This document shows positions 11,692 to 30,805 of a stretch of 64,000 nucleotides of DNA, piece by piece. Source of the DNA: Thermoplasmata archaeon (GTDB taxonomy: Archaea > Thermoplasmatota > Thermoplasmata > Methanomassiliicoccales > Methanomethylophilaceae). Every line of letters begins with the position of its first letter. The first letter of the stretch is position 1. A model generated the notes under the pieces. It did no database searches. It had not been told where the DNA came from and saw only the letters and a list, made by a program, of their open reading frames with translations. The stretch is taken from NCBI GenBank assembly GCA_015063125.1, contig SUTB01000001.1, forward strand, positions 620,001-684,000, in the 5' to 3' direction. A program made the translations under genes and the position numbers.

Positions 11692-11839
11692 TTGCGTATC
11701 TTTTCAATAATAATTGTTAATTAATTAAGTTAATAGCTTAATTTACTAAATTAATATTCTTCATTAAGCTATTTACTAAATTTAATGACTTGAACCGGTT
11801 CGAGATAGCATTATATCCTGTCCTCGTTTCATCGAGCGC
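11692..11839. promoter_or_regulatory. AT-rich intergenic region with long inverted repeat
   Basis: ATAGCTTAAT (11733-11742) is perfectly inverted as ATTAAGCTAT (11763-11772), and TTTACTAAATT-type sequence occurs directly repeated after each arm. ATTATATCC near 11810-11818 is a TATA box about 26 bp before ATG 11840. The upstream dyad may be a terminator of the TPR gene or an operator for the helicase. Confidence 0.45.
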
Positions 11840-13906: not shown

Positions 13907-14820
13907 GCATGGTATTCGACATCAAGGTATGGATCATCATAGGGATTGCCCTGGGGCTGGTCCTCGGATTCGACCATCCAGATGCGCCCACCATGCTCAT
14001 GATCACACTTATGATCCAGATGACACTGGCCCTCCAGGGGCTGAAGTTCGACTTCTCGGATATGAAGGAAAACAGGAAAGGGGTGCTTTTCTGTCTCCTT
14101 CTGTGCTTCGGATTCAACACGGCTATCACCCTCCTCACTGGACTGCTCTTCATAGACGATACTGCACTTTGGTACGGTTGGGTGATGCTTTCTGCCGTTC
14201 CCTGCGCAATTTCTGTCATGACCATGACCTTCTACATGAAGGGCGACATGAAGCTGGGCATGCTCGGATTCTCCGTGATCTATGTGTGCGCTCTAGCGCT
14301 CACACCGTTCATCACCCATATGCTCATGGGAGAAGCTGCTAGTTGGCTGAAGATACTGGAGTATGTCCTGCTGTTCGTAGTAATCCCCGTTGTCGCTGAT
14401 ATACCTCTAAACAGGATAACTATCCCCCCAAAGGTCAAGGTGATGATTATGAACGTCGTCATCATGGTCATGGTCTTCATCAGTGTCGGCTTCAGAAGGG
14501 ACTACATCATCGAGAATCCCGATATCGCCCTTTGGCTGCTCCTGGCCAACCTTGCCAGGATATTCATCCCCAGCCTGGCGATGATCTTCATCCTGAAGAA
14601 GATGCGTTTCGACAGGGACAAAGGCGTGGTCTACGTGGCCATCTCCACCTGGAGGAATTCCGGTCTAGCCGCAACACTGTGCATCATGATGTTCTCCGTA
14701 AGCTATCCCAATGCCCTGCTGCCTGCCGTCCTCTCGCTGATGGTCGAGAACCTGTGGTTCGTGATCATGCAAGGGTCTTTCGACAGACTGTGGCCCGCTC
14801 CTAAAACGGAGAAAAACTGA
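13903..14820 (+). CDS. BASS-family (bile acid:sodium symporter-like) membrane transporter
   Basis: 305 very hydrophobic residues in about nine membrane segments; the pattern GLVLGFDHPDAPTMLMITLM followed by LQGLKFDF, and the later WRNSGLAATLCIMMF with VENLWFVIM, fits the BASS/arsenite-permease-like fold. Members carry organic anions with sodium; the substrate here is unknown. It is translationally coupled to the helicase (ATGA), a pairing that is probably positional rather than functional. Confidence 0.75.
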   Translation: MSMVFDIKVWIIIGIALGLVLGFDHPDAPTMLMITLMIQMTLALQGLKFDFSDMKENRKGVLFCLLLCFGFNTAITLLTGLLFIDDTALWYGWVMLSAVPCAISVMTMTFYMKGDMKLGMLGFSVIYVCALALTPFITHMLMGEAASWLKILEYVLLFVVIPVVADIPLNRITIPPKVKVMIMNVVIMVMVFISVGFRRDYIIENPDIALWLLLANLARIFIPSLAMIFILKKMRFDRDKGVVYVAISTWRNSGLAATLCIMMFSVSYPNALLPAVLSLMVENLWFVIMQGSFDRLWPAPKTEKN

Positions 14821-14830
14821 TTTTTATAGT
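14820..14830 (+). promoter_or_regulatory. TATA box of tRNA-Ser
   Basis: ATTTTTATAGT lies about 28 bp before the tRNA 5' end, the usual archaeal spacing. Confidence 0.55.
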
Positions 14831-14852
14831 AGTTGCTCTATCGAGAAATCAC

Positions 14853-14935
14853 GCGGAGGTAGCCAAGCGGCCTACGGCGCCGGTCTTGAAAACCGGTGGA
14901 GCATCTCCTCGAGGGTTCAAATCCCTTCCTCCGCG
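14853..14935 (+). tRNA. tRNA-Ser (anticodon UGA)
   Basis: The acceptor stem GCGGAGG (14853-14859) pairs with CCTCCGC (14928-14934), discriminator G14935. The anticodon stem CCGGT/ACCGG closes the loop CTTGAAA, giving anticodon TGA that reads UCA serine codons. A long variable arm (GGAGCATCTCC) confirms a class II tRNA, and GGTTCAAATCC is the T loop. CCA is not encoded. No intron. The 3' end is repeated at 16436, which marks it as an integration site. Confidence 0.95.
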
Positions 14936-14941
14936 CCTTTT
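14921..14941. other. Putative att site within the tRNA-Ser 3' end
   Basis: ATCCCTTCCTCCGC (14921-14934) plus following C and T tract recurs at 16436-16455. An intact tRNA 3' end on one side and a short direct repeat on the other is the signature left by tyrosine-recombinase integration into a tRNA gene. Confidence 0.6.
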
Positions 14942-14948
14942 CGCCCAA

Positions 14949-16211
14949 TTATGGTCCAAGACATCCGATAGGGACTACGTAAACACCATCGTCCCTTTGA
15001 TAAGCCAATTCAGTTCCTGTCAGGACCATTTTGAAACTTGGCAGTTTCATCTCATGTTTCTCCAACAATGATTCCAACTTACATAGATTCTCTGCACCTT
15101 CATCGATATCCTTACTTCCAAGCTTCACTTCGATGACTCCGTATCTTCCATCATCTAACCTGACGACGGCGTCTGCCTCCAACCCATATTTATCATGAAA
15201 ATAGAGCACCTCACCCGATAAACTGGAAGAGTAGACTCTGAGGTCTCTTATGCATAACGATTCGAATAGTAAACCGAATGTATTGAAATCATCTACAAAG
15301 TTATCAGGAGTTATCCCCAGGTAATATGCAGCGATGGATGGATCAATCAATTCCCTTTTAGGACCCGCCCTTATTGCATCCTTCGATCTGATCTGCGGAT
15401 TCCACGCAGGAACATCCTCTATGAGGAAGACTCCTCTCAATGCAGCCAGATAGTCGGCGAATCTGTCCGAAGAGATAGAAACATCATTCTTGACCACATC
15501 AGCGACCATCGTTTTCATTGTTGCCATAGAGGAGACATTTCTTGCGTAAGATCTTATAATCTCTTTGGCTGTAGCGGGATCCTTAGCATATTTTCTTAAA
15601 GAGACGTCATCACTCTCATATATCTGATCGAGATAACTTTTGATTCTGATTGCGCATTTACGGTAACTCAAGCCCATATTCGCAGGCCAACCCCCACGAC
15701 ATAGACATTCAGCGATCTTTTTGACAGAAAGGTCTGATTTGACTCCGTTCTGAAAATCTCCATCAAACAATGCCTTTAAAGATACTTTTCCATTCGAGTC
15801 TTTGGATTCGTACAGGCTCATAGGATACATATCTAGAACTCCGATTCTGCCTGCTCCGCTATGTTGGATACTATCTTCTGATGGTATTCTGGAACCGGTT
15901 AGTATAAATTGTCCGTTTTTTCCGCCTTCATCCACATTGCTACGCACTGCATCCCAAATAACAGGAGAAACCTGCCACTCGTCGATGAGCCTGGGCTGTT
16001 CCCCTTCCAGAATCAAGGATACATCCGCTTCTGCTGCTGCTATATAGTCTTTGGATTTCTTTGGATCCTGCATCTTTATGGTACTGGCTGCAATATTGGA
16101 TGCTGTTGTAGTTTTTCCACACCATTTTGGCCCTCTGAGAAGTACTGCTCCAAATGAATCCAAATAGAATTCGAGCTCATTGTCGATGATACGCGGCATG
16201 TATCCTTCCAT
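14949..16211 (-). CDS. DUF4143-type AAA ATPase (P-loop, ExuI-like C-terminus) on tRNA-integrated segment
   Basis: 420 residues from ATG 16211 (a TTG at 16232 is in frame, but TATA-like AATAAATAG near 16238 favours 16211). Walker A GPKWCGKTTT (27-36), Walker B-like LIDEWQVSP, sensor-like ILTGSRIP, then a DUF4143 region with the nuclease-like ..EADAVVRLDDGRYGVIEVKLG (E..D..EVK). This family is widespread and often mobile; function unresolved. AT-rich codon use differs from neighbours, and the gene alone fills the interval between the tRNA and the repeated att sequence. Confidence 0.8.
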   Translation of the reverse strand: MEGYMPRIIDNELEFYLDSFGAVLLRGPKWCGKTTTASNIAASTIKMQDPKKSKDYIAAAEADVSLILEGEQPRLIDEWQVSPVIWDAVRSNVDEGGKNGQFILTGSRIPSEDSIQHSGAGRIGVLDMYPMSLYESKDSNGKVSLKALFDGDFQNGVKSDLSVKKIAECLCRGGWPANMGLSYRKCAIRIKSYLDQIYESDDVSLRKYAKDPATAKEIIRSYARNVSSMATMKTMVADVVKNDVSISSDRFADYLAALRGVFLIEDVPAWNPQIRSKDAIRAGPKRELIDPSIAAYYLGITPDNFVDDFNTFGLLFESLCIRDLRVYSSSLSGEVLYFHDKYGLEADAVVRLDDGRYGVIEVKLGSKDIDEGAENLCKLESLLEKHEMKLPSFKMVLTGTELAYQRDDGVYVVPIGCLGP

Positions 16212-16435
16212 GCTTCCACATATGCCTAACAACTATTTATTGCTGCCTTTTTGATTAAAATTCTGCAATATTTTAGTGCAAATTTTTGCAGTAATCTAGT
16301 GCTAATTGACTATTATAATATCTATAAATTCGATATCTATGTATGTGTCTGGCGCGGTGGCTATGGTGCAGAACCCTGATTTTCGGGGTAAAATTAAGAG
16401 GCCCGGTTTAGAGATCTGGACAGCGCTAGCTGTAC

Positions 16436-16455
16436 ATCCCTTCCTCCGCACTTTT
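16436..16455. other. Second att copy (tRNA-Ser 3' end repeat)
   Basis: ATCCCTTCCTCCGC (16436-16449) is identical over 14 bases to the tRNA-Ser 3' end, followed by AC and TTTT versus GCC and TTTT at the tRNA. The sequence before it no longer folds into a tRNA. Confidence 0.6.
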
Positions 16456-16549
16456 GACTCTCATAACCTTCATACTACTGTACATTGAGAGCTATCCTTG
16501 ACTCATGCATAGTTTCAACAAAGATCACATAATCAAAAATTCAAAATTG

Positions 16550-16600
16550 ATACGATTAAACATAAAAACTTTTGATTTTTAAAAATAAATACGATTAAAC
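16550..16600. repeat. 12-bp direct repeat upstream of second ATPase
   Basis: ATACGATTAAAC occurs at 16550-16561 and 16589-16600, 39 bp apart (close to four helical turns), just upstream of the TATA box of the gene at 16637. It may be a paired regulator site. Confidence 0.45.
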
Positions 16601-16636
16601 GAATTTATTTTATAGATTTAAAGAGTATTGATAATT

Positions 16637-17842
16637 ATGGAAGAAGTTTGGAGAAGACAATATCTCGATGAGATCCTTAAGTTCAAAGACCAAGATGTGA
16701 TCAAAATCATAACTGGGATAAGGAGATGCGGGAAATCCACTCTGCTATTCCAATACATGCAGATGCTGAAAGATTCTGGTGTCGATCCTGATAATATCCT
16801 ATACTACAACATGGAATCGATGAGGAACGATCGCTTCCGTGATGGCAAGGCCCTGTACGATGAAATCATATCAAAAAAGAATACTGAAAAGATTTACATA
16901 ATAATCGACGAGGTCCAGTTCATCAATGGCTGGGAGAGGGTTGTCAACTCTTTGAAGATAGACCTTGACTGCGACATATATGTAACCGGATCAAACGCAT
17001 ATATGCTCTCAACTGAGATCTCCACACTTCTTACCGGTCGCAACATCGAGATTGGCGTGCTTCCTCTATCGTACAACGAATTCTGTATAATCAACGATAA
17101 AGAATCTGAAAGAACGAGGCTGTTCGATTCATATCTGCACTATGGTGGAATGCCATTCATACGTCCAGACTATTCTGAAGAAGTTATTTTTCAAAGATTA
17201 GATGAGATAAAATCAGACATCATTTTGAAGGACATATGCAGTAGAAAAGAAAGAATTGATTCCGTCAAAGTCAGGAAGGTCATCGATTACATGTTCTCTG
17301 AGATAGGCAATTCCATATCGGCAGGGAATATCGCAGATTCATTGAAAATCAGCCCTTCTACAGCCAGCGATTACCTCAATATTATAACCGAATCCCTTTT
17401 GTTTTACAGGGTAGAAAGATACGATCTGAAGGGCAAGACGATACTCAAGACCGAAGCGAAATACTACTGTTCCGATTTGGGGATGAGGAATGCACAACCT
17501 CTGAAGGCGGATCGGGATTCTGGAAAGGTACTAGAGAATCTGGTATATCTGGAGCTCAGACGTAGAGGCTATAGAGTTTACGTGGGGACCATAGGTCAAT
17601 TGGAAATCGATTTCATAGCCCTTAAAGGCGAAGAGAGGAAGTACATCCAAGTATGTCAGACACTTTCGAATGATGAAACAAAGAAAAGGGAACTGAGACC
17701 GTTTAGAAAGATCGTCGGAGAAGGTTCTAGATTACTTATTACGGCAGATCCGATATCCATCACAAGAACCGAAGAAGCCACTATCCAGAACATAATTGAT
17801 TTTCTTGAGGAATCGAATCGAAAATCCATGTCTGAAGATTGA
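16637..17842 (+). CDS. DUF4143-type AAA ATPase, second paralogous family
   Basis: 401 residues from ATG 16637 (TTG 16628 is in frame but less likely given the TATA spacing of ~27 bp). Walker A TGIRRCGKSTLL (26-37), Walker B IYIIIDEVQFINGWE, sensor VTGSNAYML, then the DUF4143 winged helix (ISPSTASDYLNIITESLLFY) and a restriction-nuclease-like C-terminus (LEIDFIALKGEERKYIQVCQ). It belongs to the AAA_14/DUF4143 group and is only distantly similar to the 14949 gene. AT-rich compared with flanks. Cellular role unknown. Confidence 0.85.
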   Translation: MEEVWRRQYLDEILKFKDQDVIKIITGIRRCGKSTLLFQYMQMLKDSGVDPDNILYYNMESMRNDRFRDGKALYDEIISKKNTEKIYIIIDEVQFINGWERVVNSLKIDLDCDIYVTGSNAYMLSTEISTLLTGRNIEIGVLPLSYNEFCIINDKESERTRLFDSYLHYGGMPFIRPDYSEEVIFQRLDEIKSDIILKDICSRKERIDSVKVRKVIDYMFSEIGNSISAGNIADSLKISPSTASDYLNIITESLLFYRVERYDLKGKTILKTEAKYYCSDLGMRNAQPLKADRDSGKVLENLVYLELRRRGYRVYVGTIGQLEIDFIALKGEERKYIQVCQTLSNDETKKRELRPFRKIVGEGSRLLITADPISITRTEEATIQNIIDFLEESNRKSMSED

Positions 17843-17920
17843 GGGTTGAGCTGAGGGAGTATGTAAACAACTTCATCAGCCCTTATATCATACCGTTCCA
17901 TGAAGGTAGGTGATACCGGT

Positions 17921-18499
17921 ATGGCCACATTCAAATCTGGAGAAAAGGAGATTTTCTACTCCGCAGACCGCAAAGAATGGCGCCAGTGGCTCGAATCCAA
18001 TTTCAGAGATGCCAAAGAGATCTGGTTCGCATTCCCCATGAAATCCTCTGGATAGGAGGGGATAACCTACAACGATGCTGTCGAAGAGGCGCTCTGTTTC
18101 GGATGGATCGACAGTGTCGCTGGAAGCCTTGATGAGAGATGCCATATCAGACGTTTCACCCCTAGGAAGAACAACAGCCCTCACTCCAGGATGAACATAG
18201 AACGCCTAATCAATATGGACTCCAAAGGATTGATCCATCCTGAAATCCGTCCCCAGGTGGAATCCCTCATAACCGAAGAATATGTTTTCCCGAAGGACAT
18301 ACTGGCCAAGATCAAGAAAGATAAGGAGGCCTGGAAGAACTATCAGTCCTTTTCAGAGCCCTACAAGAGGATCAGGATAGCGTACATTGATTCTGCCAGG
18401 GACCGTCCGGAGGAATTCAAGAAACGCCTCAATAACTTCATCGCCAAGACCCGGGAGAACAAGAAGATCGGCGGCTACGGCGAGATCGACGACGATTAA
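17921..18499 (+). CDS. YdeI/OmdA-family protein with in-frame amber codon (candidate pyrrolysine protein)
   Basis: Read from ATG 17921 (AGGTGAT seven bases upstream) to TAA at 18499, the frame is interrupted once by TAG at 18053-18055 (codon 45). Upstream residues (FYSADRKEWRQWLE, EIWFAFPMKSSG) and downstream residues (EGITYNDAVEEALCFGWIDS) together make the canonical YdeI N-terminal motif, in which the interrupted position is usually Lys (SGK.SISY). The remainder (RRFTPRKNNSPHSRMNIERL and on) is intact, total 192 residues, the family's usual size. An in-frame ATG at 17900 would add seven residues. Role unknown; YdeI-like proteins are tied to stress tolerance. If not read through it is a pseudogene with a single lesion. 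Confidence 0.75.
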
Positions 18500-18647
18500 T
18501 GCTAAATGTTTTCCCAGACGTAGTCCCTTATAATGTTGGATGAATGCGGATACACGTTAATGCCGTTGCTATGGGTAGCGATCGTTTACACCAACAATAA
18601 ACAACATTTGAATTGTTTTAAATAGTGAATTCATATCTCTGTGTTCG

Positions 18648-19331
18648 ATGTCCAGGAAGTTGTTACTCCTAGCTTTGGCCGTCGTGTCATTCGCGGCGGT
18701 CTGCGTCAGCTTGGATCTAGCGGCGGCTATGGACTCGGAAGCGGAGGCAGACCGTCCCATGGATCAGCCGGATAGGAACATGCCCGGTTCGATGTGCGGC
18801 CATATGGAACCGCCTATGGACGGGCCCAGACCGCTCGGTATGATGCCGGGAGACATGGCACCCATGGACGGCGGAATGGATCCGCAGAAAAGAATCGAGC
18901 CAAGGTCCGAACCAGGGCCGATGGAACCTAGGTCCGAGCAGCCTGAATATCAGCATGATGCTTCACCCGAGGTGCTATCAGCGCATCTCAAGCCGATGAT
19001 CGACGGAGACATCTCCGAATTTGACCCCGGATTCGTCGAGGACGCCATCGATTACGCGATGGACAACGGGATGGAGGACATCGCGGAGCTTCTCATGAAG
19101 AAGCTTGCCGCCAACTACGAATCCTACCTGCACACCATTCTGCACATCGGTGCAATCGATACCCGTGCAAGCGGTTTCGACGACGAAATGGATGAGGCAT
19201 CGGATTTCGAGCTCGTCGATGAGGATGAGGAGGATCCAGTGGATCCCATGCCCTTCTCCGAGCCCGCACCTTCTCAATACAATCCGTTCAGAGAATTCTC
19301 TGAGCCCCTTTTCGTCCTTCTGGAGCTGTGA
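18648..19331 (+). CDS. Secreted Met/Pro-rich acidic protein
   Basis: 227 residues. A signal peptide (RKLLLLALAVVSFAAVCVSL) is followed by a Met-, Pro-, Asp- and Gly-rich stretch (about residues 25-90; CGHMEPPMDG, LGMMPGDMAPMDGGMDP) and a helical acidic C-terminal half with several DE clusters. Clusters of Met with His and Cys are typical of extracellular copper or silver binding, but no known domain is recognised and metal binding is inference. A TATA-like TTTTAAAT (18616-18623) lies 25-30 bp upstream. Confidence 0.7.
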   Translation: MSRKLLLLALAVVSFAAVCVSLDLAAAMDSEAEADRPMDQPDRNMPGSMCGHMEPPMDGPRPLGMMPGDMAPMDGGMDPQKRIEPRSEPGPMEPRSEQPEYQHDASPEVLSAHLKPMIDGDISEFDPGFVEDAIDYAMDNGMEDIAELLMKKLAANYESYLHTILHIGAIDTRASGFDDEMDEASDFELVDEDEEDPVDPMPFSEPAPSQYNPFREFSEPLFVLLEL

Positions 19332-19505
19332 ACGTTCTGAAACGCCAGAACCTGCGCTCAAGCGCATAAACCTCAGAACACAGCCAATAAGGAAGGAAAA
19401 GAAATGGGAAGAATGAACCAAGGAAATCATCAACCGATTCAATCGGTATCATCTGCACATCTCATCTTTTCCGGAGCTGAAGAGCTTCAGAAGGGATGAT
19501 CAGAG

Positions 19506-20192
19506 ATGGGCAGCATATTCGACAGTCTGTTCAATTCAGTGGACTCGATGGGTCCTCAGGAATTCATAATATGTGTGGCAGCAGCCCTGGCGATAGGGGC
19601 AGTGATATCTGTCATCTACATGTTCAGGAACAATTTCAGCAAGAGCTTCGCACTCACGATAGCGATCCTGCCTGCGATAGTAGCAGTCGTGATAATGGTC
19701 GTCAGCGGAGACATCGGAGCAGGAATCGCAGTAGCGGGAGCATTCAGTCTCGTCAGGTTCCGTTCGGCACCCGGATCTGCGAAGGAGATAGCCATCATCT
19801 TCCTCGCTATGGCCACTGGGCTCCTCATCGGAATGGGATTCATCGCTTACGCAGCGATATTCGCAGCGATAATCGGGCTGGTCATATTGGTGTGCAACAC
19901 TATGAAGTTCACCGAGAGGAAGACCGAGCAGGCCGAGAAGGTGCTCAGGATTACTATCCCTGAGGATCTTGATTACACATCCGACATCGACTCTGTAATA
20001 GACGAATACTCCTCATCCATGGAGCTCGTCTCCGTTAAGACGGTGAACATGGGAAGCATGTTCAAGCTCACATACAACATTACACTGAAGGATCTGAGCA
20101 AGCAGAAGGAGCTCATCGACAAGATACGCGTCAGGAACGGGAATCTGGAGGTAGCTCTCATGCGCAGGGATACGGTGGAATCCAACCTGTGA
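19506..20192 (+). CDS. DUF4956 membrane protein
   Basis: 228 residues with four membrane helices in the first ~140 residues (FIICVAAALAIGAVISVIYM, AILPAIVAVVIMVV, IFLAMATGLLIGMGFIAYAA) and the family motif AGAFSLVRFRSAPGSAKE between helices. The C-terminal ~80 residues form a cytosolic alpha/beta domain. DUF4956 proteins are regularly encoded beside VTC-domain proteins, as here (four-base gap), and probably form a membrane complex with them. Confidence 0.88.
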   Translation: MGSIFDSLFNSVDSMGPQEFIICVAAALAIGAVISVIYMFRNNFSKSFALTIAILPAIVAVVIMVVSGDIGAGIAVAGAFSLVRFRSAPGSAKEIAIIFLAMATGLLIGMGFIAYAAIFAAIIGLVILVCNTMKFTERKTEQAEKVLRITIPEDLDYTSDIDSVIDEYSSSMELVSVKTVNMGSMFKLTYNITLKDLSKQKELIDKIRVRNGNLEVALMRRDTVESNL

Positions 20193-20195
20193 GGT

Positions 20196-21059
20196 ATGGT
20201 CATGGTAGCGAAGACGATATTCAAGAGATACGAGCTGAAGTACGTGCTGGACAGGTGCCAATACGACGCTGTGGAGAAGGTTCTGCAGGAGCATATGGTC
20301 CTGGACAGGTACGGGCACAGCTCTATTCGCAACATCTACCTCGATACGGATGATTTCCTGCTTGCTAGACGCTCCATAGAGAAGCCGTTATACAAGGAGA
20401 AGCTCCGTTTGCGCAGCTACGGTGCTGCTACTGAGGATGAGGATATCTTCGTTGAACTGAAGAGGAAGTATGACGGAGTCGTCTACAAAAGACGTCTGTC
20501 AATACCATCAAAGAAGGCCATGGAATGGTTCTCCGGGAATGCGGAACCGCCAATGGGCCAGATCGCTGAAGAGATCGACTACTTCCGGGTGAGGTATCAG
20601 GGGATCGGGCCGGCTATGTACCTGTCCTATGAGCGCGATTCATACGCAGCCAAGGATGGCGGCGATCTTAGGATCACAATAGATTCCGATATCCTCTCGA
20701 GGACGGTCGACATCGATCTCGGACAGGAACCTTCGGGCAACGAGGTGTTGCCGAAGGGATACAGGGTGATGGAGGTCAAGACCATGTACGGGTATCCCTC
20801 ATGGCTGACCGAGCTCCTATCATACAACAGCCTATACAAATCATCCTTCTCCAAGTATGGGAACGCATACAAGGAGATGGTTCTGGGATTCAGACCCGAA
20901 GAGGTCTGTCTCCCCTCCTACGCCGGACAAATAAGCCGCAGCAACAGCGGGTATGCCACAGACAACCAGACTGCGGGCAAGAGGTCCGTCATCGACAAAA
21001 CCCTTTACAGCCATGCAAAGACGGCTGCTTCGATAAAGATGAGAGGAACGATAGAATGA
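20196..21059 (+). CDS. VTC-domain protein (polyphosphate polymerase-like)
   Basis: 287 residues. FKRYELKYVLDRCQYDAVEK opens the tunnel-fold VTC domain; charged strands SSIRNIYLDTDDFLLARRSI, EKLRLRSYG, EDIFVELKRKYDGVVYKRR and YRVMEVKTM provide the basic and Glu residues that bind nucleotide, phosphate and metal in VTC4 polyphosphate polymerase. Its product may be polyphosphate or another polymer; bacterial homologues next to DUF4956 are uncharacterised. It overlaps the downstream surface-protein gene by ATGA, giving a three-gene operon. Confidence 0.88.
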   Translation: MVMVAKTIFKRYELKYVLDRCQYDAVEKVLQEHMVLDRYGHSSIRNIYLDTDDFLLARRSIEKPLYKEKLRLRSYGAATEDEDIFVELKRKYDGVVYKRRLSIPSKKAMEWFSGNAEPPMGQIAEEIDYFRVRYQGIGPAMYLSYERDSYAAKDGGDLRITIDSDILSRTVDIDLGQEPSGNEVLPKGYRVMEVKTMYGYPSWLTELLSYNSLYKSSFSKYGNAYKEMVLGFRPEEVCLPSYAGQISRSNSGYATDNQTAGKRSVIDKTLYSHAKTAASIKMRGTIE

Positions 21060-22882
21060 ACGGGAGCATATTAGCGGTGATTGCTATAGCTGCTATCGCA
21101 GTCATCGGTGGAGCTGTCTTCTTCATGGGCGGGAACCAGAGCGATGATAGCTCCGAGACTACGGTCAACGAGACCACTAGGGATACTGTGAGTGAAATCG
21201 ACACAGGAGAGAGCTCAGACCAGGGCGCTTCGAATGCCGAGAACAACACCTCTTCGGATTACGCCTTCACCATAACCTATGTAAGCGGAACCGAGAACGC
21301 GTACCAGATCACCAGCAGTTCCGGACAGTACACCGTGACCTTCAGCGGGATCTCAGCAGATACTGAATACTCCATAGCCGGGGTACTGAACGGCAACATA
21401 GTCATCGATGCCGGCGACTACGATTTCGACCTGGACCTCAACGGGGTGACCATCACCTCAACAGCAGAAGTCCCTATCTGCATAACATCAGGGGAGAACG
21501 TATCGATTGCAGCCAAGAAGAACACCACCAACTACGTATACGACAAGCGTGCGGCGGTATCCGACGAGGACATCTCCGCATGCATCTACAGCAATAGCGA
21601 TCTGAAGCTCAAAGGAAACGGAAAGCTCGTTGTAGTTTCGGATAACAACAACGGAGTCCACTCCAAGGACGATCTTTCCGTCAAGAACCTAACACTCTAC
21701 GTCACATGTGTGGACAACTGCCTCAAAGGCAACGACAGCGTGAAGATCACCTCCGGAAACATAATCCTCAACGCAACATCCGGCGACGGAATCAAGACCT
21801 CCAACAGCGAGCTCAGCAGCAAGGGCGTGCAGCGCGGTTCAGTCACGATAAACTCAGACGACGGGGACACATCCCTGACCATCAGGGCATACTGCGACGG
21901 AATAGACAGCGCTTTCGACGTGATAGTCGAGGAGACTCAAGGCAACAGCGTCGACATCAACATCATAGCCGGTGTTGAGGCCACGTCTTCCGCATCCTCA
22001 GTCACCTCCAGTCCGGGAGGAATGCCCGGCGGAGGCTCAGGATGGGGAGGAAACCCCGGAGGAAGCAGCTGGGGCCAGGGAGGTCCTAACAGCGAGGGCA
22101 ACAATAACAAGGCATCCTACTCCTGCAAGGGTATCAAGGCCAACAACGCGATATACATCAATTCGGGAACACTGATCATCGATGCATTCGACGATACTCT
22201 CCATGCCAACAACGATGAAGCCATCGAGTCCGGCGTCACCCCGACAGGAAATGTCACCATCGCAGGCGGAACGGTTACCCTTAACAGCAAGGATGACGGA
22301 ATCCACGCCGACGGTACGCTGACCGTTTCGGGAGGAACCCTGAGGATCAATGGAAGCTACGAGGCACTCGAAGGCGCTTACATCGTCATATCCGGAGGCA
22401 ATACATCTCTGATCTCCTCGGATGACGGAATCAACGCCACATCCAGCGGTCTTAAGCTTTCCGGAGGATACCTCTACGTCTACGCCGGAGGCGACGGGCT
22501 CGACTGCAACAGGAGCTCCATCTCCTTCGAGGGAACGGATGTGATAATCATATCCACCAGCGGAGGTAACTCGAGCATCGATGCCGACTACAGCTACTCC
22601 TATACAGGTGGAAGCGTGCTCGCCATCTGTCCCAACGGAATGACACAGGAGGTCACCGGATCATCTGCATTCAGATCCTACGGAAGCCAGCAGTCCTTCA
22701 GCAGTCTGAACAAGGGAACAGTCGTAACAACGACGGTCAACGGTACCGCCATGCTTGCAGTGAAGATGCCCGTATCCCTGAGCAACTGCTTTGCGGTTTA
22801 CATCGGATCGACCTCTGCTACCATCAGCTCCGGAAGCTCATCGCTCAGCCTGAACGATGACGGGGCGTATGTGAGAGCATGA
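21056..22882 (+). CDS. Cthe_2159-like carbohydrate-binding beta-helix surface protein
   Basis: 608 residues from ATG 21056. A single N-terminal membrane anchor (residues ~4-27) precedes a Ser/Thr/Asn-rich stalk and two blocks of parallel beta-helix repeats (GVHSKDDLSVKNLTLYVTC, DGIHADGTLTVSGGTLRING, DDGINATSSGLKLSGGYLYV) separated by a Gly-rich linker at ~320-350. This is the Cthe_2159 (carbohydrate-binding domain-containing) architecture, known from Clostridia. It is predicted to sit outside the cell and bind acidic or plant polysaccharide. The gene is coupled to the VTC protein, so surface display and the VTC/DUF4956 system probably work together. Confidence 0.82.
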   Translation: MNGSILAVIAIAAIAVIGGAVFFMGGNQSDDSSETTVNETTRDTVSEIDTGESSDQGASNAENNTSSDYAFTITYVSGTENAYQITSSSGQYTVTFSGISADTEYSIAGVLNGNIVIDAGDYDFDLDLNGVTITSTAEVPICITSGENVSIAAKKNTTNYVYDKRAAVSDEDISACIYSNSDLKLKGNGKLVVVSDNNNGVHSKDDLSVKNLTLYVTCVDNCLKGNDSVKITSGNIILNATSGDGIKTSNSELSSKGVQRGSVTINSDDGDTSLTIRAYCDGIDSAFDVIVEETQGNSVDINIIAGVEATSSASSVTSSPGGMPGGGSGWGGNPGGSSWGQGGPNSEGNNNKASYSCKGIKANNAIYINSGTLIIDAFDDTLHANNDEAIESGVTPTGNVTIAGGTVTLNSKDDGIHADGTLTVSGGTLRINGSYEALEGAYIVISGGNTSLISSDDGINATSSGLKLSGGYLYVYAGGDGLDCNRSSISFEGTDVIIISTSGGNSSIDADYSYSYTGGSVLAICPNGMTQEVTGSSAFRSYGSQQSFSSLNKGTVVTTTVNGTAMLAVKMPVSLSNCFAVYIGSTSATISSGSSSLSLNDDGAYVRA

Positions 22883-22889
22883 CCTATAT

Positions 22890-22907
22890 GTCCCCCTTAC
22901 GGGGGAC
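22890..22907 (+). terminator. Hairpin terminator after surface-protein operon
   Basis: GTCCCCC (22890-22896), loop TTAC, GGGGGAC (22901-22907): a perfect 7-bp GC-rich stem eight bases after the stop codon. The following tract is A-rich rather than T-rich. Confidence 0.5.
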
Positions 22908-22954
22908 AATAAACCCTTTCCAATCCTTTTATACGGTCCTCCCGACACACCTTC

Positions 22955-23315
22955 ATGGCATACGACGTGAAGATGATTGACAAGGGACGCACCGAAGAGC
23001 TTCTGGGATGATGCAGTTCTCTCAATTACTACAGAGTCAAGGCCGACATTAACGGGATCTGCATCGAGCTTTTCAGCGAGAATAAGGATTACATCGACAT
23101 GTGGACGGACAACTTCTATCACATGTCCGACTCTGTTCGCTCCCATGCCAGGATCTTCTGCAACCCGCACCAGCTCATCCGCGATGACCGTATCATATCC
23201 CTCCGCAGGGAATTCTTCAGAGAGTATCTCTCCCAGTGTTCGTTGTTCATGATTAACACCATCTGTCCCGCGAAGGAGACAGGAACGCATCAGGCAGATC
23301 GTCAGCGGAAACTGA
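22955..23315 (+). pseudogene. Broken gene: in-frame TGA, frameshift and truncation
   Basis: From ATG 22955 (TATA-like TTTTATAC about 26 bp upstream) the frame meets TGA at 23009-23011, then continues with good protein sequence (LNYYRVKADINGICIELFSE, DNFYHMSDSVRSHARIFCN, REFFREYLSQCSLFMINT) up to about 23275. A one-base shift there leads to ERIRQIVSGN and TGA at 23313-23315, overlapping the convergent sfsA. TGA is not expected to be recoded in this lineage, so I read this as a decayed gene. The family is not recognised with certainty. Confidence 0.65.
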
Positions 23316-23985
23316 ACGGGAGAGGCGAATCCACCGTCATGCTATCAGGTGTGACCAGGCAGTCATAGGCCAGTATCTTCACACCTTTTCTGTAAGCTTT
23401 CTCCAGTACGATGCCGAACTCCTCATGCGTGGAGTAGTTGGGTGTGAACGATTTCATTCCCTTCATCTGCACAATGAGCGCTATGTAGCATTCGTATCCT
23501 TCATCCAGAGCCTCCATGAGGCCTTTCAGATGCTTCACACCGCGCTCGGTAGGCGCATCGGGGAACATGCAGATGCCGTCGAACTCCAGTGTCACGCCTT
23601 TGACCTCGATAAAGCACTTCCTGTCGCCGTCCTCCACATAGAAATCGAATCTGGAGTCGCCGTGAGTGAATTCCGGATGAACTACGGGATCCTGGCCGAA
23701 GAGGCCGGAAACTGGGATGAACTCCTTGAAAGCAGCGTTCGGAGCCTGTGAATCGATGTTGATCAGGATATCTCCCTTGTAGGCAGCGATAAGGTCGTAG
23801 CGGGTCTTCCTTTCGGGGTTATCGGAGTCGTAGAGAACAGCTTTGGTCCCAGGAACAAGTATCTCCTTGCATCTCCCGGTGTTCTTCACATGGACCGTCT
23901 CTATGTTGCCATCGACCTCGACCTTAGCGATGAATCTGTTCGGTCTGCTAAGGAACTTACCCTCTACAACCCTGTCGTATCTCAA
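23302..23985 (-). CDS. sfsA: SfsA family protein
   Basis: 227 residues with the complete SfsA layout: an N-terminal OB-like part (RFIAKVEVDGN, VHVKNTGRCKEIL), then a nuclease-like core with SRFDFYVEDGDRKCFIEVKG (D..E.K) and FPDAPTERGVKHLKGLMEAL. The E-V-K triad suggests a PD-(D/E)xK nuclease; the bacterial gene was named for sugar fermentation stimulation and its biochemical role is not settled. Convergent with the decayed gene to its right edge. Confidence 0.93.
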   Translation of the reverse strand: MRYDRVVEGKFLSRPNRFIAKVEVDGNIETVHVKNTGRCKEILVPGTKAVLYDSDNPERKTRYDLIAAYKGDILINIDSQAPNAAFKEFIPVSGLFGQDPVVHPEFTHGDSRFDFYVEDGDRKCFIEVKGVTLEFDGICMFPDAPTERGVKHLKGLMEALDEGYECYIALIVQMKGMKSFTPNYSTHEEFGIVLEKAYRKGVKILAYDCLVTPDSMTVDSPLPFSFR

Positions 23986-24148
23986 GATACCGCCCTTAAC
24001 TCCGTTGATATCCGACCTGCATATTGGTATTTGTCCCTATCCTTGTTCAGACGTCTTCACGTATCGGATAAATCTGAAATAAATCGGAAATTATGCCCAT
24101 ATCCAGCCATCATCCTTCTTTAATACCCTGTATGCAGGTCTTTTCCAC

Positions 24149-24382
24149 ATGAAACCGATAACGCAGGAAGAACTGCTAGCTACCATCGAGGAAAATCCGA
24201 TGATCTGCACTCGTGCGATAGTGAAGAAGCTGCGCCCTGAAGAGTTTCATGACGCAGATGCGTACGTGAAGTATGTTGATGAGATCAAACCCATGCTCAT
24301 GACTCTCTGGAAGAACGGCAAGATCGTCTCATCCAAGGTACAGTGCTGCACCTTCAATCTGAAGCAGTGGCAGATAGCCTGA
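24149..24382 (+). CDS. Small winged-helix-like protein, 77 aa, unknown
   Basis: The residues TQEELLATIEENPMICTRAI and KPMLMTLWKNGKIVSS resemble a winged helix-turn-helix in which the last strand pair forms the wing. CCTF near the C-terminus adds two adjacent cysteines. A TATA-like TTTAATAC (24117-24125) at about -27 supports a leaderless mRNA. It could be a small regulator; no family is recognised. Confidence 0.6.
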   Translation: MKPITQEELLATIEENPMICTRAIVKKLRPEEFHDADAYVKYVDEIKPMLMTLWKNGKIVSSKVQCCTFNLKQWQIA

Positions 24383-25789
24383 TCAATCCTCTACGAATTC
24401 CTCTTTCTTCAGGAGTTTGGGGTACCCTCCCCTCAGGAACTTCCTGATGGAGGTTATCCCGAACACTCCGCCGTAGATGGAACCGATCATCTCGGATGCT
24501 ACGAATCCCCACCAGATCATCTCGAGGGTTCCGAACGAGACCGCCAATGCTAGGCATATCGGGATGCGTATTAGGTTCAGCACCGCTGTGATGGAGAGTG
24601 ATTTCAGACCCCATCCCATGGACTGGAAGTAACCTACGGACGTGTATCCCAAAGGCGTGAACGGCATGTATATCGCGCTTATCAGCAGGAAGAACGCCAT
24701 CTGATCCCTCAGTCCGATCGTGGCCTCGGAATATGTGAACGGCAGGACCAGGTACTGGTTGAACAGCACCAGCACCAATGAGATGCCGATGCTGATGAGT
24801 ATTCCGTACTTCAGAGCTATGAAGTAGATCTCCTTCACTTTGCTGGCCTTCTTGGCACCCAGGGCTGCTGCGCAGATGGGCACTATGGAGAAGCCGATCG
24901 CCAGAGTCGGCATGAAGAACAGGTCCATTATCTTGAATCCGTTACCGAAGATGGCCACACCGTCGATGGGCGATACACCTTCGATGATGACGTTCATCAC
25001 CATCGCCGTGACGGACATGAGGATGATTTCCATCGATGCGGGGATTCCGACACGGAGGATATCCCAATCCAGATGAAGGTCGAACTTGAATCCCTTCAGA
25101 GGGATCTTGACGAATGTGCTCTGGTTTCCGAAATACCAGAAGAATGCGATGATTATCGGAACGGTCATCGACAGGGACGTTGCGATGGCTGCTCCGGATA
25201 TCCCCCATCCAAAGCCGAAGATGAAGATCGGGTCGAGGATCATGTTGAAGACGACCCCGATGACATGGATGATCATGGAACGCTTCGCGGCACCTTCTGA
25301 TCTGAGCAGACCGCTGAGCATGTTTCCGATCAGGATGGCGGGGGTTCCGATGAAGATCGGGATAGCGTAGGCCAAGCAAGCCTCCATGTTGGACGCGCCT
25401 CCGCTGGCGGCGATCAGTTGCTCGGCCAGCAGTATGAATACGACCGCCAGGACGATACTCATGACAAGAGTCATCATAAGTGCCTGTGCGGCGACCCTGT
25501 TGGCTCCCTGGCGATCCATGGATCCGATACGCCTGGCCAATGCCTGTGATGCTCCCACACCTATTCCGTTTCCGAAGCCGATCATCAGGAAGAACAGCGG
25601 GAAAATGACGTTGACTGCCGCCTGCGCCTCCACTCCGATCGATGTCAGCCAGACCGTGTCCACGACATTGTTGATGCTCTGGATGAAGTTGGCTATCATA
25701 ACAGGCACAGCCATGGCTATGATGGCCTTCTTGGGGTTGCCCAGCATGATCTCCACATCTTTTGTCATCCTAGCTTCGGTCTCGGACAT
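24383..25789 (-). CDS. MATE-family efflux transporter
   Basis: 468 residues with twelve predicted membrane helices in two related halves: GNPKKAIIAMAVPVMIANFI...NNVVDTVW opens the first half and LRVGIPASMEIILMSVTAMV the second. GIGVGASQALARRIG is the typical MATE loop. It probably exports cationic drugs or metabolites against sodium or protons. Monocistronic; convergent with the 24149 gene, whose stop abuts its own. Confidence 0.93.
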   Translation of the reverse strand: MSETEARMTKDVEIMLGNPKKAIIAMAVPVMIANFIQSINNVVDTVWLTSIGVEAQAAVNVIFPLFFLMIGFGNGIGVGASQALARRIGSMDRQGANRVAAQALMMTLVMSIVLAVVFILLAEQLIAASGGASNMEACLAYAIPIFIGTPAILIGNMLSGLLRSEGAAKRSMIIHVIGVVFNMILDPIFIFGFGWGISGAAIATSLSMTVPIIIAFFWYFGNQSTFVKIPLKGFKFDLHLDWDILRVGIPASMEIILMSVTAMVMNVIIEGVSPIDGVAIFGNGFKIMDLFFMPTLAIGFSIVPICAAALGAKKASKVKEIYFIALKYGILISIGISLVLVLFNQYLVLPFTYSEATIGLRDQMAFFLLISAIYMPFTPLGYTSVGYFQSMGWGLKSLSITAVLNLIRIPICLALAVSFGTLEMIWWGFVASEMIGSIYGGVFGITSIRKFLRGGYPKLLKKEEFVED

Positions 25790-25939
25790 TGTTTCCCCCT
25801 TAAGAGGAATACCTAATAAATGTTGTGAATGGCCAGCGGTGTTTTATGAATCTTCTTCCATTACCATTCGGAACAGACCGGATGATGATAGACCTTGGCT
25901 GATCAGTGATGAGCCCTATGAGTTCTGACGGTGTTCCGC

Positions 25940-26479
25940 TCATTCATCTGAAGAATAATCGGACATTCCGACATAGCTTATGAGGTCCGATAGCTTCATC
26001 CCGTTCTCCCAGCGCATGATGAAGTTCCCGTTCGCAGATGATTCGAACTTGGGTATCCTCCTGTAGAGGATGGCGTTCCTTCCCTTGAAAACGTGGTCGG
26101 TTGGGATGGTGAAGATCCTCCAAGGGTCGCCTCTGTATGCCTTGAGCCTGTATGCGTAGATGGGGACCAGATGCGACTGCGTACAGTCCGCCAACATATC
26201 GTTGGCCTGCTCGATGAGACGGGCATTCTTGCTGAAATGGAGAACGTCGTCGGCTGAGCTCTTCACCTCTATGGGGAAAGAGAAATCCCATCTCATGGCG
26301 ACCAGATCGATACCTAAAGAACCTGCGGCACGAGTGACCAGGAACGGATTCACCAGCATGCTCTTGTACGCATCCGTCTCGGAAGCGCTGCATGTCTTGA
26401 TCATCTTGTTTATGACCTTCTCGTCTCCTGAAAGGAGTCCTTTCAATTCCCTCTCGTAAGGCTCGCCCGGTGCTGCCAT
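25940..26479 (-). CDS. hjc: Holliday junction resolvase Hjc-like
   Basis: 179 residues. The N-terminal PYERELKGLLS (E9/E11), then VTRAAGSLGIDLVAMRWDFS (D58) and PIEVKSS (E71, K73) make the PD-(D/E)xK catalytic set of archaeal Hjc. The usual Hjc is about 120-135 residues; this one has an insertion before the first Asp and ~40 extra C-terminal residues. It resolves four-way DNA junctions. A TATA-like TTTATATA at 26512-26519 lies upstream. Confidence 0.8.
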   Translation of the reverse strand: MAAPGEPYERELKGLLSGDEKVINKMIKTCSASETDAYKSMLVNPFLVTRAAGSLGIDLVAMRWDFSFPIEVKSSADDVLHFSKNARLIEQANDMLADCTQSHLVPIYAYRLKAYRGDPWRIFTIPTDHVFKGRNAILYRRIPKFESSANGNFIMRWENGMKLSDLISYVGMSDYSSDE

Positions 26480-26586
26480 TTTGCATCCCTATCATCATCA
26501 CCGACTGGAGAGTATATAAAGAAAAGAGGGGGGTGGCCGAAAGTGGCGAAAGTGGAAAATCGGGGGTCATGCCCCCGGAAATCATT

Positions 26587-27891
26587 TCAAGGCGACAGTC
26601 TGCTGGGATCCCTGGGGAAGAGGATGGCTTCCCTGATGTTCGGGAGGTCCAGCATCTTGACGAGCAGCCTCTCGATACCGATTCCCCATCCGCCGTGCGG
26701 AGGCATTCCGTATCTGAAGGCGTCGAGGTAGAATCCGAAGTCGTCGGGGTTGAGCCCTTTCTTCTCCATCCTTGCGACGAGCCTGTCGTACCTGTGCTCC
26801 CTCTGTCCTCCGGATGAGATCTCCTGGCCCTTGTAGTCCAGGTCGAATGCGAAGGAGAACTCGGTGCCGTCCTTCTCCATGATGTAGAAGGGTTTGGCCT
26901 CCTCGGGGTACTCGACGATGAAGTACATCTCCTTGCCCTGCTTGGCCATGTACTCTCCGACGATCTTCTCTCCCTCGGTTCCGAGGTCGTCGCCGTTCTT
27001 CAGCGGGAGTCCTCCGTCGTTGACGATCTTCAGGCACTCGCTGTACGTGAGCTTGGGGAAGGGGCGGGAAGGGACCACGATGTCCTTTCCGATGAGCTCC
27101 AGCTGCTTGGCGCCTTTCTCCTTGAGCCCGGTGATTACGTGGTCGATGATGACCTCGATCATGTCGGTGACGTCGTCCATGCTCTGGATCCAGGACATCT
27201 CTCCGTCGAAGGAGATGAACTCGGTGACGTGACGGTTGGTGTTGGACTGCTCCGCGCGGAATGCGGGGGCGATCTCGAACACCCTGTCCAGTCCGGTGGA
27301 CATGAGCACCTGCTTGTAGAGCTGGGGGGACTGGGAGAGGAACGCGTTCTTGTCGAAGTACTTGATCTTGAACAGCTCGGCTCCTCCCTCCGCACCTGCG
27401 GCGGAGATCTTGGGGGTGTAGACCTGTGTGAAACCGTTCTCGCGGACGGCCTCCTCGATGAGAGCGACCATCATGGACTTCAGCTCGAATATGGCCTTGA
27501 TCTCGGGCTTCCTCAGGTCCATGAACCTGTTGTTTAGACGGGTGTCCATCTCTACGTTGACCTTGTCGATGACTCCCATGGGCAGAGGGACTCCGGCCTC
27601 GCTATGCATCGTGTATGCCGATGGGATGACCTCCAGGCCCAGAACGGTCTGGTTGCTCTCCTTGACCTCTCCGACGATGGAGACTACGGATTCCCTGGAC
27701 AGGGATGTGAGCTTGTCGAAGAGCTCGGGGTCGATCTTCTTCTTGGGCATTGTGACCTGGATGACTCCGTACCTGTCGCGGAGCTGGAGGAAGGCGATTC
27801 CTCCCATGTTCCTGATGTCCTGAACCCATCCGCTGATGGTGACCTCTCCGTCACCGACCGCGATGTTGCTGGAATCCTTGAAAGCTGTCAT
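26587..27891 (-). CDS. aspS: Aspartyl-tRNA synthetase (archaeal type)
   Basis: 434 residues from ATG 27891 (a TTG nine bases upstream is also in frame; a TATA-like TTATAGG near 27913-27919 favours the ATG). N-terminal OB fold (ISGWVQDIRNMGGIAFLQLR), class II core with motif 2 (FEIAPAFRAEQSNTNRHVTE) and motif 3 (GGWGIGIERLLVKML), and no bacterial GAD insertion, as expected for archaea. It charges tRNA-Asp; whether it also mischarges tRNA-Asn cannot be decided here. Confidence 0.97.
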   Translation of the reverse strand: MTAFKDSSNIAVGDGEVTISGWVQDIRNMGGIAFLQLRDRYGVIQVTMPKKKIDPELFDKLTSLSRESVVSIVGEVKESNQTVLGLEVIPSAYTMHSEAGVPLPMGVIDKVNVEMDTRLNNRFMDLRKPEIKAIFELKSMMVALIEEAVRENGFTQVYTPKISAAGAEGGAELFKIKYFDKNAFLSQSPQLYKQVLMSTGLDRVFEIAPAFRAEQSNTNRHVTEFISFDGEMSWIQSMDDVTDMIEVIIDHVITGLKEKGAKQLELIGKDIVVPSRPFPKLTYSECLKIVNDGGLPLKNGDDLGTEGEKIVGEYMAKQGKEMYFIVEYPEEAKPFYIMEKDGTEFSFAFDLDYKGQEISSGGQREHRYDRLVARMEKKGLNPDDFGFYLDAFRYGMPPHGGWGIGIERLLVKMLDLPNIREAILFPRDPSRLSP

Positions 27892-27925
27892 GATGTTCAA
27901 CCCGATTGATTCTTCCTATAACTAA

Positions 27926-28681
27926 TCACTTCTTCTTGGCCTGGTTAGCGACCGCGTCCATCTTGGCGTTCACCGCATCCTGGTCTCCCAGGTATCTCTT
28001 GGATATGACCTTGAATTCCCTGTCGAACTCGTACACCAACGGAACTCCGGTAGGGATGTTCACTCCCACGATGTCCTCGTCGGAGATGTCCTCGAAGTAC
28101 TTGACGAGGGCACGGAGGGAATTGCCGTGCGCAGCGATGATAATCCTGTCTCCCGCGAGCATCCTGGGTCTTATGACATCGTTGAAGAAGGGAACTGCCC
28201 TTGCAACGGTGTCCTTGAGACTCTCTGTGAGCGGGAGAGAATCCTTGGGAACCCCTCTGTAGGGATCCTGCAGCGCAGGGTTCCTGTCATCGTCCTCGGC
28301 GAGTGTCGGCGGAGGGATGTCGTAGGATCTGCGCCATTTCTTGACCTGATCCTCGCCGTACTTCTCGGCGGTCTCGGCCTTGTTGAGTCCCTGGAGCGCT
28401 CCGTAATGCCTCTCGTTGAGCTTCCAGGACTTGATGACAGGCAGCCATTCGCGGTCCATCTCCTCCAATGCGAGGTTGAGTGTGTGGATGGCGCGCTTGA
28501 GGTAGGATGTATAGCAGACATCGAAGTCGAATCCTTCCGCCCTCATGAGCTTACCGGCAGATCTGGCTTCCGCTTTGCCTGTGTCCGATAGGTCCACATC
28601 GGTCCAACCGGTGAAGAGATTCTGCTTGTTCCATTCGCTCTCTCCGTGGCGGAGCAGCACCAAGGTCATGTTTCCTGTCAT
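27926..28681 (-). CDS. gpmA: 2,3-bisphosphoglycerate-dependent phosphoglycerate mutase
   Basis: 251 residues. [12 protein letters not shown] contains the phospho-accepting His; [20 protein letters not shown] and [12 protein letters not shown] supply the remaining active-site residues. This is the bacterial dPGM type, unlike the cofactor-independent enzyme usual in archaea, so acquisition by transfer is likely. It interconverts 2- and 3-phosphoglycerate. A 3' fragment of a closely related copy lies at 6433-6522. Basic tail NQAKKK. Confidence 0.95.
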
Positions 28682-28860
28682 ATGGTCGGCAATCGTGAGT
28701 GTCGTTTATTAGCCTGTTGGGCGGAAACCGTCCTGAAAGATGCTCATTGATGTGCATTATGCATCGCGAATCGCCTTTTCGTTCGACTTCCAGTATAGTC
28801 CGAGTTAAAGCACTTTTTATAGAAGTCAGCCCATCAAGAAAATAATACAGGTTGTTAATC

Positions 28861-30090: not shown

Positions 30091-30095
30091 TCTCG

Positions 30096-30767
30096 ATGAA
30101 ATCGAATCCAGCGGTCATCGTCAACTTCAAGGTGTACTCCGAGGTCGAGGGAGTAAAGGCCCTCGAACTGGCGGAGATCTGCGCCAAGGTTGCCGAGGAG
30201 ACCGGAGCGAACCTGGTGGTTTGCCCTCCCATGGTGGAGCTGTCCTACGTAGCGGACCAGGTAGAGATACCCGTCTACTCGCAGAACGTGGACCCCCGCA
30301 AGCCCGGTTCCGGAACTGGATTCACCACACCGTCGCTGGTCAAATCAGCGGGTGCCTCAGGCACCCTGATAAACCATTCGGAGCACAAGCAGCCCGCGTC
30401 CGACGTGGGCTCTTGTGTCCAATTATGCAAGGATCTGGACCTTGTCACCTGCGTCTGCGCGGACACCGTTGACATCGCGAAGGATCTCGCCCAATTCTCA
30501 CCTGATTACATCGCAGTGGAGCCTCCTGAACTGATAGGAGGAGACATATCCGTCACCACCGCCAACCCCGGCATCGTCTCCGGTACAGTGGAAGCGGTGA
30601 AATCCGTCGACAAGAAGATCAAGGTCCTGTGCGGGGCCGGCGTCAAGAACGGCGGGGATGTGAAGACCGCTGTTGACTTGGGTGCGGAGGGAGTTCTGCT
30701 TGCCTCGGGCGTAGTCAAAGCTGCTGATCCTGAAGCTGTCATCAGAGACCTGATCCGCAACATCTGA
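30096..30767 (+). CDS. tpiA: Triosephosphate isomerase, archaeal short type
   Basis: 223 residues, the short archaeal form. NFKVY carries the active-site Lys, INHSEHK the electrophilic His, and AVEPPELIGG the catalytic Glu; VLCGAGVKNGGDV is the phosphate-binding loop. It supplies DHAP and GAP to the adjacent aldolase/phosphatase and to EgsA for lipid backbones. Co-transcribed with fbp. Confidence 0.96.
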   Translation: MKSNPAVIVNFKVYSEVEGVKALELAEICAKVAEETGANLVVCPPMVELSYVADQVEIPVYSQNVDPRKPGSGTGFTTPSLVKSAGASGTLINHSEHKQPASDVGSCVQLCKDLDLVTCVCADTVDIAKDLAQFSPDYIAVEPPELIGGDISVTTANPGIVSGTVEAVKSVDKKIKVLCGAGVKNGGDVKTAVDLGAEGVLLASGVVKAADPEAVIRDLIRNI

Positions 30768-30805
30768 GCATCGCTATTTTCTACGAGTAACTGTTACCAT
30801 CAGCC

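Follow-up and report, generated by a model that had tools for sequence, protein, structure and literature searches.

A 64,000-nucleotide stretch from a Thermoplasmata archaeon of the family Methanomethylophilaceae (GenBank assembly GCA_015063125.1, contig SUTB01000001.1, positions 620,001 to 684,000 of the forward strand; hereinafter the window) carries a tight operon, with all genes on the + strand, that strings together a DUF4956 membrane protein, a VTC domain enzyme and an anchored beta-helix protein of the Cthe_2159 family, and to which a secreted Met/Pro-rich protein encoded just upstream belongs as a fourth member. We propose, at an even balance of probability, that these genes constitute a surface-polyanion cassette: polyphosphate would be made, exported and held at the cell surface, and the unit as a whole, probably obtained via exchange with gut Clostridia, would be passed on as a block.

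The trio had been singled out by a sequence-only reading, and it is confirmed by family matches, tight spacing and conserved adjacency in relatives. In family profile searches, the DUF4956 gene matches PF16316 (E 1.1e-20), the VTC gene matches PF09359 (E 1.8e-42; residues 10-228 against positions 1-234 of the 235-position profile) and the third gene matches PF14262 in two stretches (E 4.4e-64). The VTC protein, with no membrane-like segment of its own, is encoded 3 bp from DUF4956, which has four strong ones. The stop of VTC, in turn, overlaps the start of the Cthe_2159 gene by 4 bp (ATGA, 21056-21059); 21056 is most likely the true start, the mechanical open reading frame start at 20801 being too long. 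The resulting 608-residue protein has a single N-terminal membrane-like segment (residues 5-23) and matches a solved beta-helix, PDB 4peu, with E 2e-20.

The suggestion that the Met-rich gene upstream may belong to the set proves right, since the window-type secreted gene always stands before DUF4956: across 102 genomes of the family, its profile finds 8 loci in 7 genomes, all 8 just before DUF4956. In the window, the gene lies 174 bp upstream of DUF4956, and its product is rich in D/E, P and M (50 D+E against 14 K+R). More broadly, 15 of 17 loci (the exceptions being L031 and L046) have a gene for a secreted acidic protein (18-22% D+E) whose end is no more than 193 bp away from DUF4956 on the upstream side, and at one locus among the relatives the two genes overlap; this check took in 17 of the 22 family loci, leaving out those of G052, G017, G013, G021 and G091. 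These upstream genes fall into two sequence types, A and B, which hhalign links with a probability of 29% and which may or may not form one family. At E 0.001 the window gene is matched by neither Pfam nor NCBIfam, and a profile search against the PDB returned a best hit of only E 0.54.

Table 1. Features of the cassette region, in positions of the window.
Feature	Coordinates	Strand	Basis and remarks
Stretch without counterpart in the same-species genome G054	18493-23343		Genome comparison; 54 bp in G054 instead
TATA-box-like TTTAAATA	18617-18624	+	Upstream of the secreted gene; consensus match only; also seen upstream of the G057 gene
Secreted acidic Met/Pro-rich protein, fourth cassette gene	18648-19331	+	227 aa; signal-like segment at residues 5-23
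DUF4956 membrane protein, proposed exit channel and docking site	19506-20192	+	PF16316; structure model; invariant FSLVRFRS
VTC domain, polyphosphate-polymerase-like triphosphate tunnel enzyme	20196-21059	+	PF09359; Vtc4 matches
Cthe_2159-type beta-helix with N-terminal membrane anchor	21056-22882	+	PF14262; PDB 4peu
HprK-like P-loop gene remnant	22955-23368	+	Neighbor gene, apparently carried in with the block
sfsA, convergent neighbor, probable site of recombination at the right end of the incoming block	23302-23985	-	Identity drop against G054

The biochemical core of the proposal is the VTC protein, a probable Vtc4-like tunnel enzyme that is predicted to make polyphosphate from ATP. Its structure model (mean predicted local distance difference test score, pLDDT, 81.5) finds Vtc4 as its best PDB match (3g3r, E 1.5e-14), and in this fold search the Vtc4 chains rank ahead of tunnel enzymes of the adenylate-cyclase and triphosphatase types; a profile match to yeast Vtc4 is likewise recovered (E 1.7e-6). 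Residues R71 and R73 align with Vtc4 R264 and R266 (chain numbering minus 3), and E193 aligns with E426 in a second segment lacking significance of its own. None of the three varies across 19 family rows, and their yeast counterparts are the residues altered in the R264A/R266A/E426N complex described in the available text of PMC9911596. Thus, the likeness to the yeast VTC complex (Vtc1/Vtc3/Vtc4) consists of a tunnel polymerase, matching catalytic residues and a coupled membrane component; unlike in yeast, no SPX or Vtc1-type domain was matched here, the partner is DUF4956 and surface proteins are added.

Polyphosphate storage is widespread, and the VTC protein might instead supply an intracellular storage or stress polymer, with DUF4956 as its anchor or sensor and the surface protein linked by co-regulation only. 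The lack of a PPK1 match in 6 of the 20 VTC-bearing genomes of the family speaks for such a role. However, PPK1 is present in 74 of the 102 family genomes and in 14 of the 20 with VTC, including that of the window (G000); hence, storage polyphosphate does not need VTC, and VTC as the sole source of polyphosphate is ruled out. Together with the close linkage of VTC to the genes for one membrane protein and for two proteins that are secreted or anchored, this makes a storage role, in our estimate, quite improbable.

Under the proposed mechanism, polyphosphate would first be made from ATP by the cytosolic VTC enzyme, as its fold and residues suggest. In a second step, DUF4956 would pass the nascent chain through the membrane in the manner of the Vtc1/3/4 helices, and its soluble domain would dock the polymerase; in yeast, membrane helices with basic residues have been proposed to translocate the nascent chain (PMC9911596, available text). 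The DUF4956 model (mean pLDDT 71.8) combines a helical membrane part with a ferredoxin/ACT-like C-terminal soluble domain, and a motif at the end of a membrane helix, FSLVRFRS, is invariant in 22 archaeal and clostridial rows. In a comparison of DUF4956 with MgtC (PF02308) as putative distant kin, 5 of 22 rows reached E <= 1, the best standing at 0.26, and the kinship is not adopted here. In a third step, the membrane-anchored beta-helix would retain at the surface either the exported chain or a glycan to which that chain is cross-linked, with the acidic secreted protein as a putative accessory surface component.

Cellulose and polygalacturonic acid are bound by the C. thermocellum protein Cthe_2159 of the beta-helix family, and archaeal homologs are already on record (both in the accessible part of PMC6712302). 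The window protein belongs to the same Pfam family as the solved structures (PDB 4peu, 4phb), but differs in its length, its two family stretches, its membrane anchor and its placement in a polymerase operon. Polygalacturonate being a polyanion, polyphosphate is, by analogy, a plausible alternative ligand. A bolder form of the proposal, in which polyphosphate extruded by DUF4956 would be worn as a tethered surface polymer, the beta-helix family would be a polyphosphate (polyanion) receptor and the cassettes would be swapped like bacterial capsule loci, we consider unlikely.

The known ligands also invite a reading in which the beta-helix acts as an adhesin towards the pectin or cellulose of plants, and VTC and DUF4956 modify or charge a surface glycan, with no free polyphosphate being exported. 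Consistent with this, one predicted adhesive-domain cluster overlaps PF14262 (PMC9210967, in the portion available), and, according to the text available of PMC7112168, the Pel exopolysaccharide genes of Gram-positive bacteria are accompanied by a group of accessory genes for CotH, a poly-phosphate polymerase and DUF4956. The resemblance of our cassette to that group lies solely in the pairing of polymerase and DUF4956 beside a third protein: in the Pel loci the third partner is the kinase CotH and the Pel genes are contiguous, whereas neither occurs among the ten window proteins that were scanned (four of the cassette and six neighbors, 16.6-26.5 kb). The same trio of CotH, polyphosphate polymerase and DUF4956 sits among glycosyltransferase and pyruvyl transferase genes on the rumen plasmid pNP95 of Pseudobutyrivibrio xylanivorans (L155), a possible vehicle for spread. 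Nevertheless, no glycosyltransferase or polysaccharide-synthesis family was found among the ten scanned window proteins, and in the PDB the VTC model comes closest to a polymerase, Vtc4. We therefore regard the adhesin reading as somewhat unlikely.

In the family, VTC is found in 20 genomes, DUF4956 in 19 and Cthe_2159 in 22 (20 above the curated cut-off). All 19 DUF4956 genomes carry VTC, and in the twentieth VTC genome (G052) DUF4956 is cut at a contig end. The distribution is patchy, with VTC in only 14 of the 31 genomes of the window's genus; across the class Thermoplasmata it was found in 9 of 300 sampled genomes, all in the window's family. Of the 22 family VTC loci, 18 have DUF4956 immediately before VTC in the same orientation, and in 15 of these 18 Cthe_2159 comes directly after VTC; of the three loci without it, that in G091 lies ~600 bp from a contig end, and the Cthe_2159 gene of this genome is on another contig. 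Cthe_2159 shows a looser linkage than DUF4956, as 15 of its 22 genomes carry VTC. Departures from the common arrangement include the loci L044, L046 and L047 of genus g7, where VTC and DUF4956 are divergently transcribed without an adjoining Cthe_2159, and contig C6 of G017, where they are ~110 kb apart. At a few loci (L005:3340-4218, L030, L032, L033 and L043), a gene that we named ferredoxin-nitroreductase-like by reading its sequence precedes the cassette.

Comparison with closely related genomes points to the mode by which the cassette moves. The genome of the window (1.65 Mb in 8 contigs, 99% complete) can be set beside that of the same species, G054, in which a profile search recovered no match to the DUF4956, VTC or Cthe_2159 families. 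The two are 98% identical over window positions 9177-18492 and 97% identical overall over 23344-33888; between these, 4.85 kb of the window faces the 54 bp of G054. Beside this gap, sfsA falls to 72-77% identity per 100 bp to G054 (23.4-23.9 kb) and returns to 96-100% from ~23.9 kb, and its DNA is more similar to that of another relative, G057 (81.4%), than to that of G054 (75.2%). Likewise, the HprK-like remnant is, over its first 206 bp, 87.4% identical to G057 as against 70.4% to the intact gene of its own genome; the cassette of G057 is followed by the HprK-like gene and then by sfsA. Given these drops at the block edges from an identity of 98-99% outside, the simplest reading is that the window copy is a block from a G057-like relative, acquired by homologous recombination at sfsA, and that the redundant HprK-like copy it brought along has since decayed. 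As the fourth step of the mechanism, we accordingly picture the unit being exchanged as a block among related gut methanogens by homologous recombination in flanking genes; here the synteny is observed, and the direction is presumed. To the left of the block, two genes for AAA/DUF4143-type ATPases (14949-17842; the first recognized by reading only) of low G+C content (~0.38-0.43) adjoin a tRNA-Ser gene; this stretch is shared at 98% with G054 and is therefore outside the cassette block.

The genome of the window has a second cassette, on contig C4 at ~570-575 kb, 68 kb from the window copy. The protein identities between the copies are 34% for the secreted gene, 71% for DUF4956, 58% (57.9%) for VTC and 57% for Cthe_2159. 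A recent duplication was rejected, because the window VTC is 74.8% identical to that of G057 as against the 57.9% to its paralog, the VTC and DUF4956 trees place the two copies in different groups and the second beta-helix stands alone. The window copy pairs with G057 in all three trees (VTC, DUF4956 and Cthe_2159); for VTC and DUF4956, the second copy is placed with G059, G058 and G064. At the second locus, compared with G054, the cassette tract is 68-89% identical per 100 bp between flanks at 94-100%, and gain is harder to separate from loss than at the window locus. Taken together, gain, loss and replacement of the cassette among close relatives appear to proceed by whole blocks.

The second copy is followed by an intact HprK-like P-loop gene, of which the window holds the remnant, with a TGA at codon 19 and about residues 70-260 of 313 missing. 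As this gene is near-universal in the family (83 of 102 genomes, including the cassette-free G054), we consider it a neighbor and reject it as a fifth cassette member. The HprK-like family scores below the Pfam cut-off for Hpr_kinase_C. In addition, three otherwise intact cassette genes contain an in-frame TAG: one in the second copy (L005:4443-4445), and two at locus L040 of G050, at codon 134 of the secreted gene and codon 182 of VTC. A PylS catalytic domain is encoded 525 bp past the window end (260 bits, cut-off 178), in keeping with the archaeal host, which we take to be a gut methanogen of the order Methanomassiliicoccales; a profile search for the PylS N-terminal family gave no match. 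The occurrence of these TAG-bearing genes in genomes with the catalytic domain makes pyrrolysine in the polyphosphate polymerase and the secreted protein possible; 16 further TAG-containing genes have been predicted in Ca. M. alvus (PMC4153887, in the text available).

We collected bacterial relatives as the best 80 loci from a scan of 84,980 species genomes driven by two peptide patterns. Four loci are archaeal (L049, L050, L051 and L071, coinciding with G058, G056, G061 and G021 and not used twice) and 76 are bacterial, nearly all titled Clostridia and many of rumen or hindgut origin, with VTC proteins 43-53% identical to that of the window. Among these, DUF4956 lies directly downstream of VTC in 75 of 76, the last being cut by a contig end (L087, where DUF4956 overlaps a long VTC match, was counted by coordinates), and a Cthe_2159-like gene is found downstream in 62 of 76, with 6 of the 14 loci lacking it ending within 1.3 kb. 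In line with the view that ties the set to Clostridia, the trio is common there, and the window carries an archaeal version of a bacterial gene set that has received little study. The clostridial sets resemble it in having the same three families, adjacent and on one strand; they differ in that VTC usually comes first (VTC-DUF4956-Cthe_2159; not taken as a defining feature), as against the DUF4956-first order at 18 of the 22 archaeal loci and the extra acidic secreted gene in front.

Trees were computed from 22 archaeal and 76 bacterial rows for VTC, 19 and 74 for DUF4956, and 14 and 51 for Cthe_2159, after dropping tblastn pieces shorter than 180 residues (VTC) or 150 residues (DUF4956, Cthe_2159). 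In the VTC tree, the 22 archaeal rows form one clade, with support of 95-97 in the Shimodaira-Hasegawa-like approximate likelihood ratio test (SH-aLRT). A first tree drew this clade as nested within Clostridia. This was dropped, as a single clostridial clade stood at p 0.897 in the approximately unbiased (AU) test and the tree constrained to such a clade gained 56.7 log units over the free search (the plasmid outgroups L154 and L155 being omitted from the AU-tested tree as long branches). In the DUF4956 tree, the archaeal rows fall into two groups over a base without resolution. In the tree of the Cthe_2159 N-domain, the 14 archaeal rows and four gut Clostridia (L065, L092, L093 and L107) group together with an SH-aLRT of 100, apart from the other 47 clostridial rows; two origins for the archaeal beta-helices were not adopted, since a single archaeal clade passes the AU test (p 0.876), and the four Clostridia may or may not sit inside the archaeal group. 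These four Clostridia have an archaeal-type Cthe_2159 beside ordinary clostridial VTC and DUF4956, which may be taken as a sign of gene-by-gene exchange between the domains of Life. To our reading of the trees, inter-domain exchange appears well supported for the beta-helix and likely, in an undirected sense, for the whole unit. As the fifth step, then, the lineage would have obtained the unit by exchange with gut Clostridia, as is likely. No donor or direction is assigned, because the trees do not nest the archaea in Clostridia and because Methanosarcina has VTC and DUF4956. Thus, the earlier notion of a transfer into the archaeon stands in part: the patchy distribution (20 of 102 and 9 of 300 genomes) and the clostridial kinship agree with it, and nesting within Clostridia is not supported. 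Rather than the three genes falling deep within archaea with no Firmicute kin nearby, their nearest listed relatives outside the family are from gut Clostridia.

The same data raise the alternative that VTC and DUF4956 are old in archaea and were lost in most Thermoplasmata, with the clostridial likeness reflecting transfer to bacteria or common ancestry. The single clade of archaeal VTC copies, the AU result compatible with a single clostridial clade, and the control genome of Methanosarcina acetivorans, which scores for both VTC and DUF4956, are in keeping with such a history. Yet the restriction of VTC to one family among the 300 sampled genomes of the class, the absence of a Cthe_2159 match in the Methanosarcina control and of any Methanosarcina among the best 80 loci of the pattern-driven scan argue against it, and we judge it to be improbable.

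Turning back to the surface-polyanion cassette, several observations weigh against the proposal: (i) 4 of the 22 family loci depart from the order of DUF4956 and then VTC on a single strand; (ii) 7 of the 22 Cthe_2159 genomes are without VTC (G065, G068, G072, G073, G008, the weak G030 and G044), and 5 of the 20 VTC genomes are without Cthe_2159 (G052, G012, G013, G017 and G021), some of these assemblies being incomplete; (iii) the DUF4956 model is of medium confidence, and a PDB fold search with it gave no match at E <= 0.001, the best being short ferredoxin/ACT-like domains; (iv) the archaeal gene order differs from the clostridial one, the trees are quick searches with SH-aLRT support only, and the nesting of the archaeal VTC inside Clostridia is unsupported by the AU test; (v) the beta-helix of the second copy forms a long branch by itself in its tree; and (vi) an ancestral two-copy state with loss in G054 may apply, most of all at the second locus.

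Earlier work has touched upon surface proteins in these organisms from another side. In the text available of PMC7883539, adhesion proteins of Methanomassiliicoccales are compared, including parallel beta-helix adhesin-like proteins, which are few in the host-associated clade, and VTC and polyphosphate go unmentioned there; adhesins are also noted in gut archaea in the accessible part of PMC8727293. In the parts available of the open-licence literature searched, we found no report of a DUF4956-VTC-Cthe_2159 cassette in archaea and no experimental account linking DUF4956 or Cthe_2159 to a polyphosphate polymerase.

Against this background, what stands out most is the presence and absence of the cassette within one species beside recombination tracts, along with its link to a secreted family that lacks a Pfam or NCBIfam name. 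Two genomes of this species, one having the cassette genes and the other lacking them, offer a natural comparison, and surface loci of archaea appear to move as blocks. For the gut methanogens of Methanomassiliicoccales, the cassette points to a specific candidate polymer that would be synthesized and then exported to the cell surface; if so, it would also assign roles to DUF4956 and Cthe_2159, families that are common in gut Clostridia.

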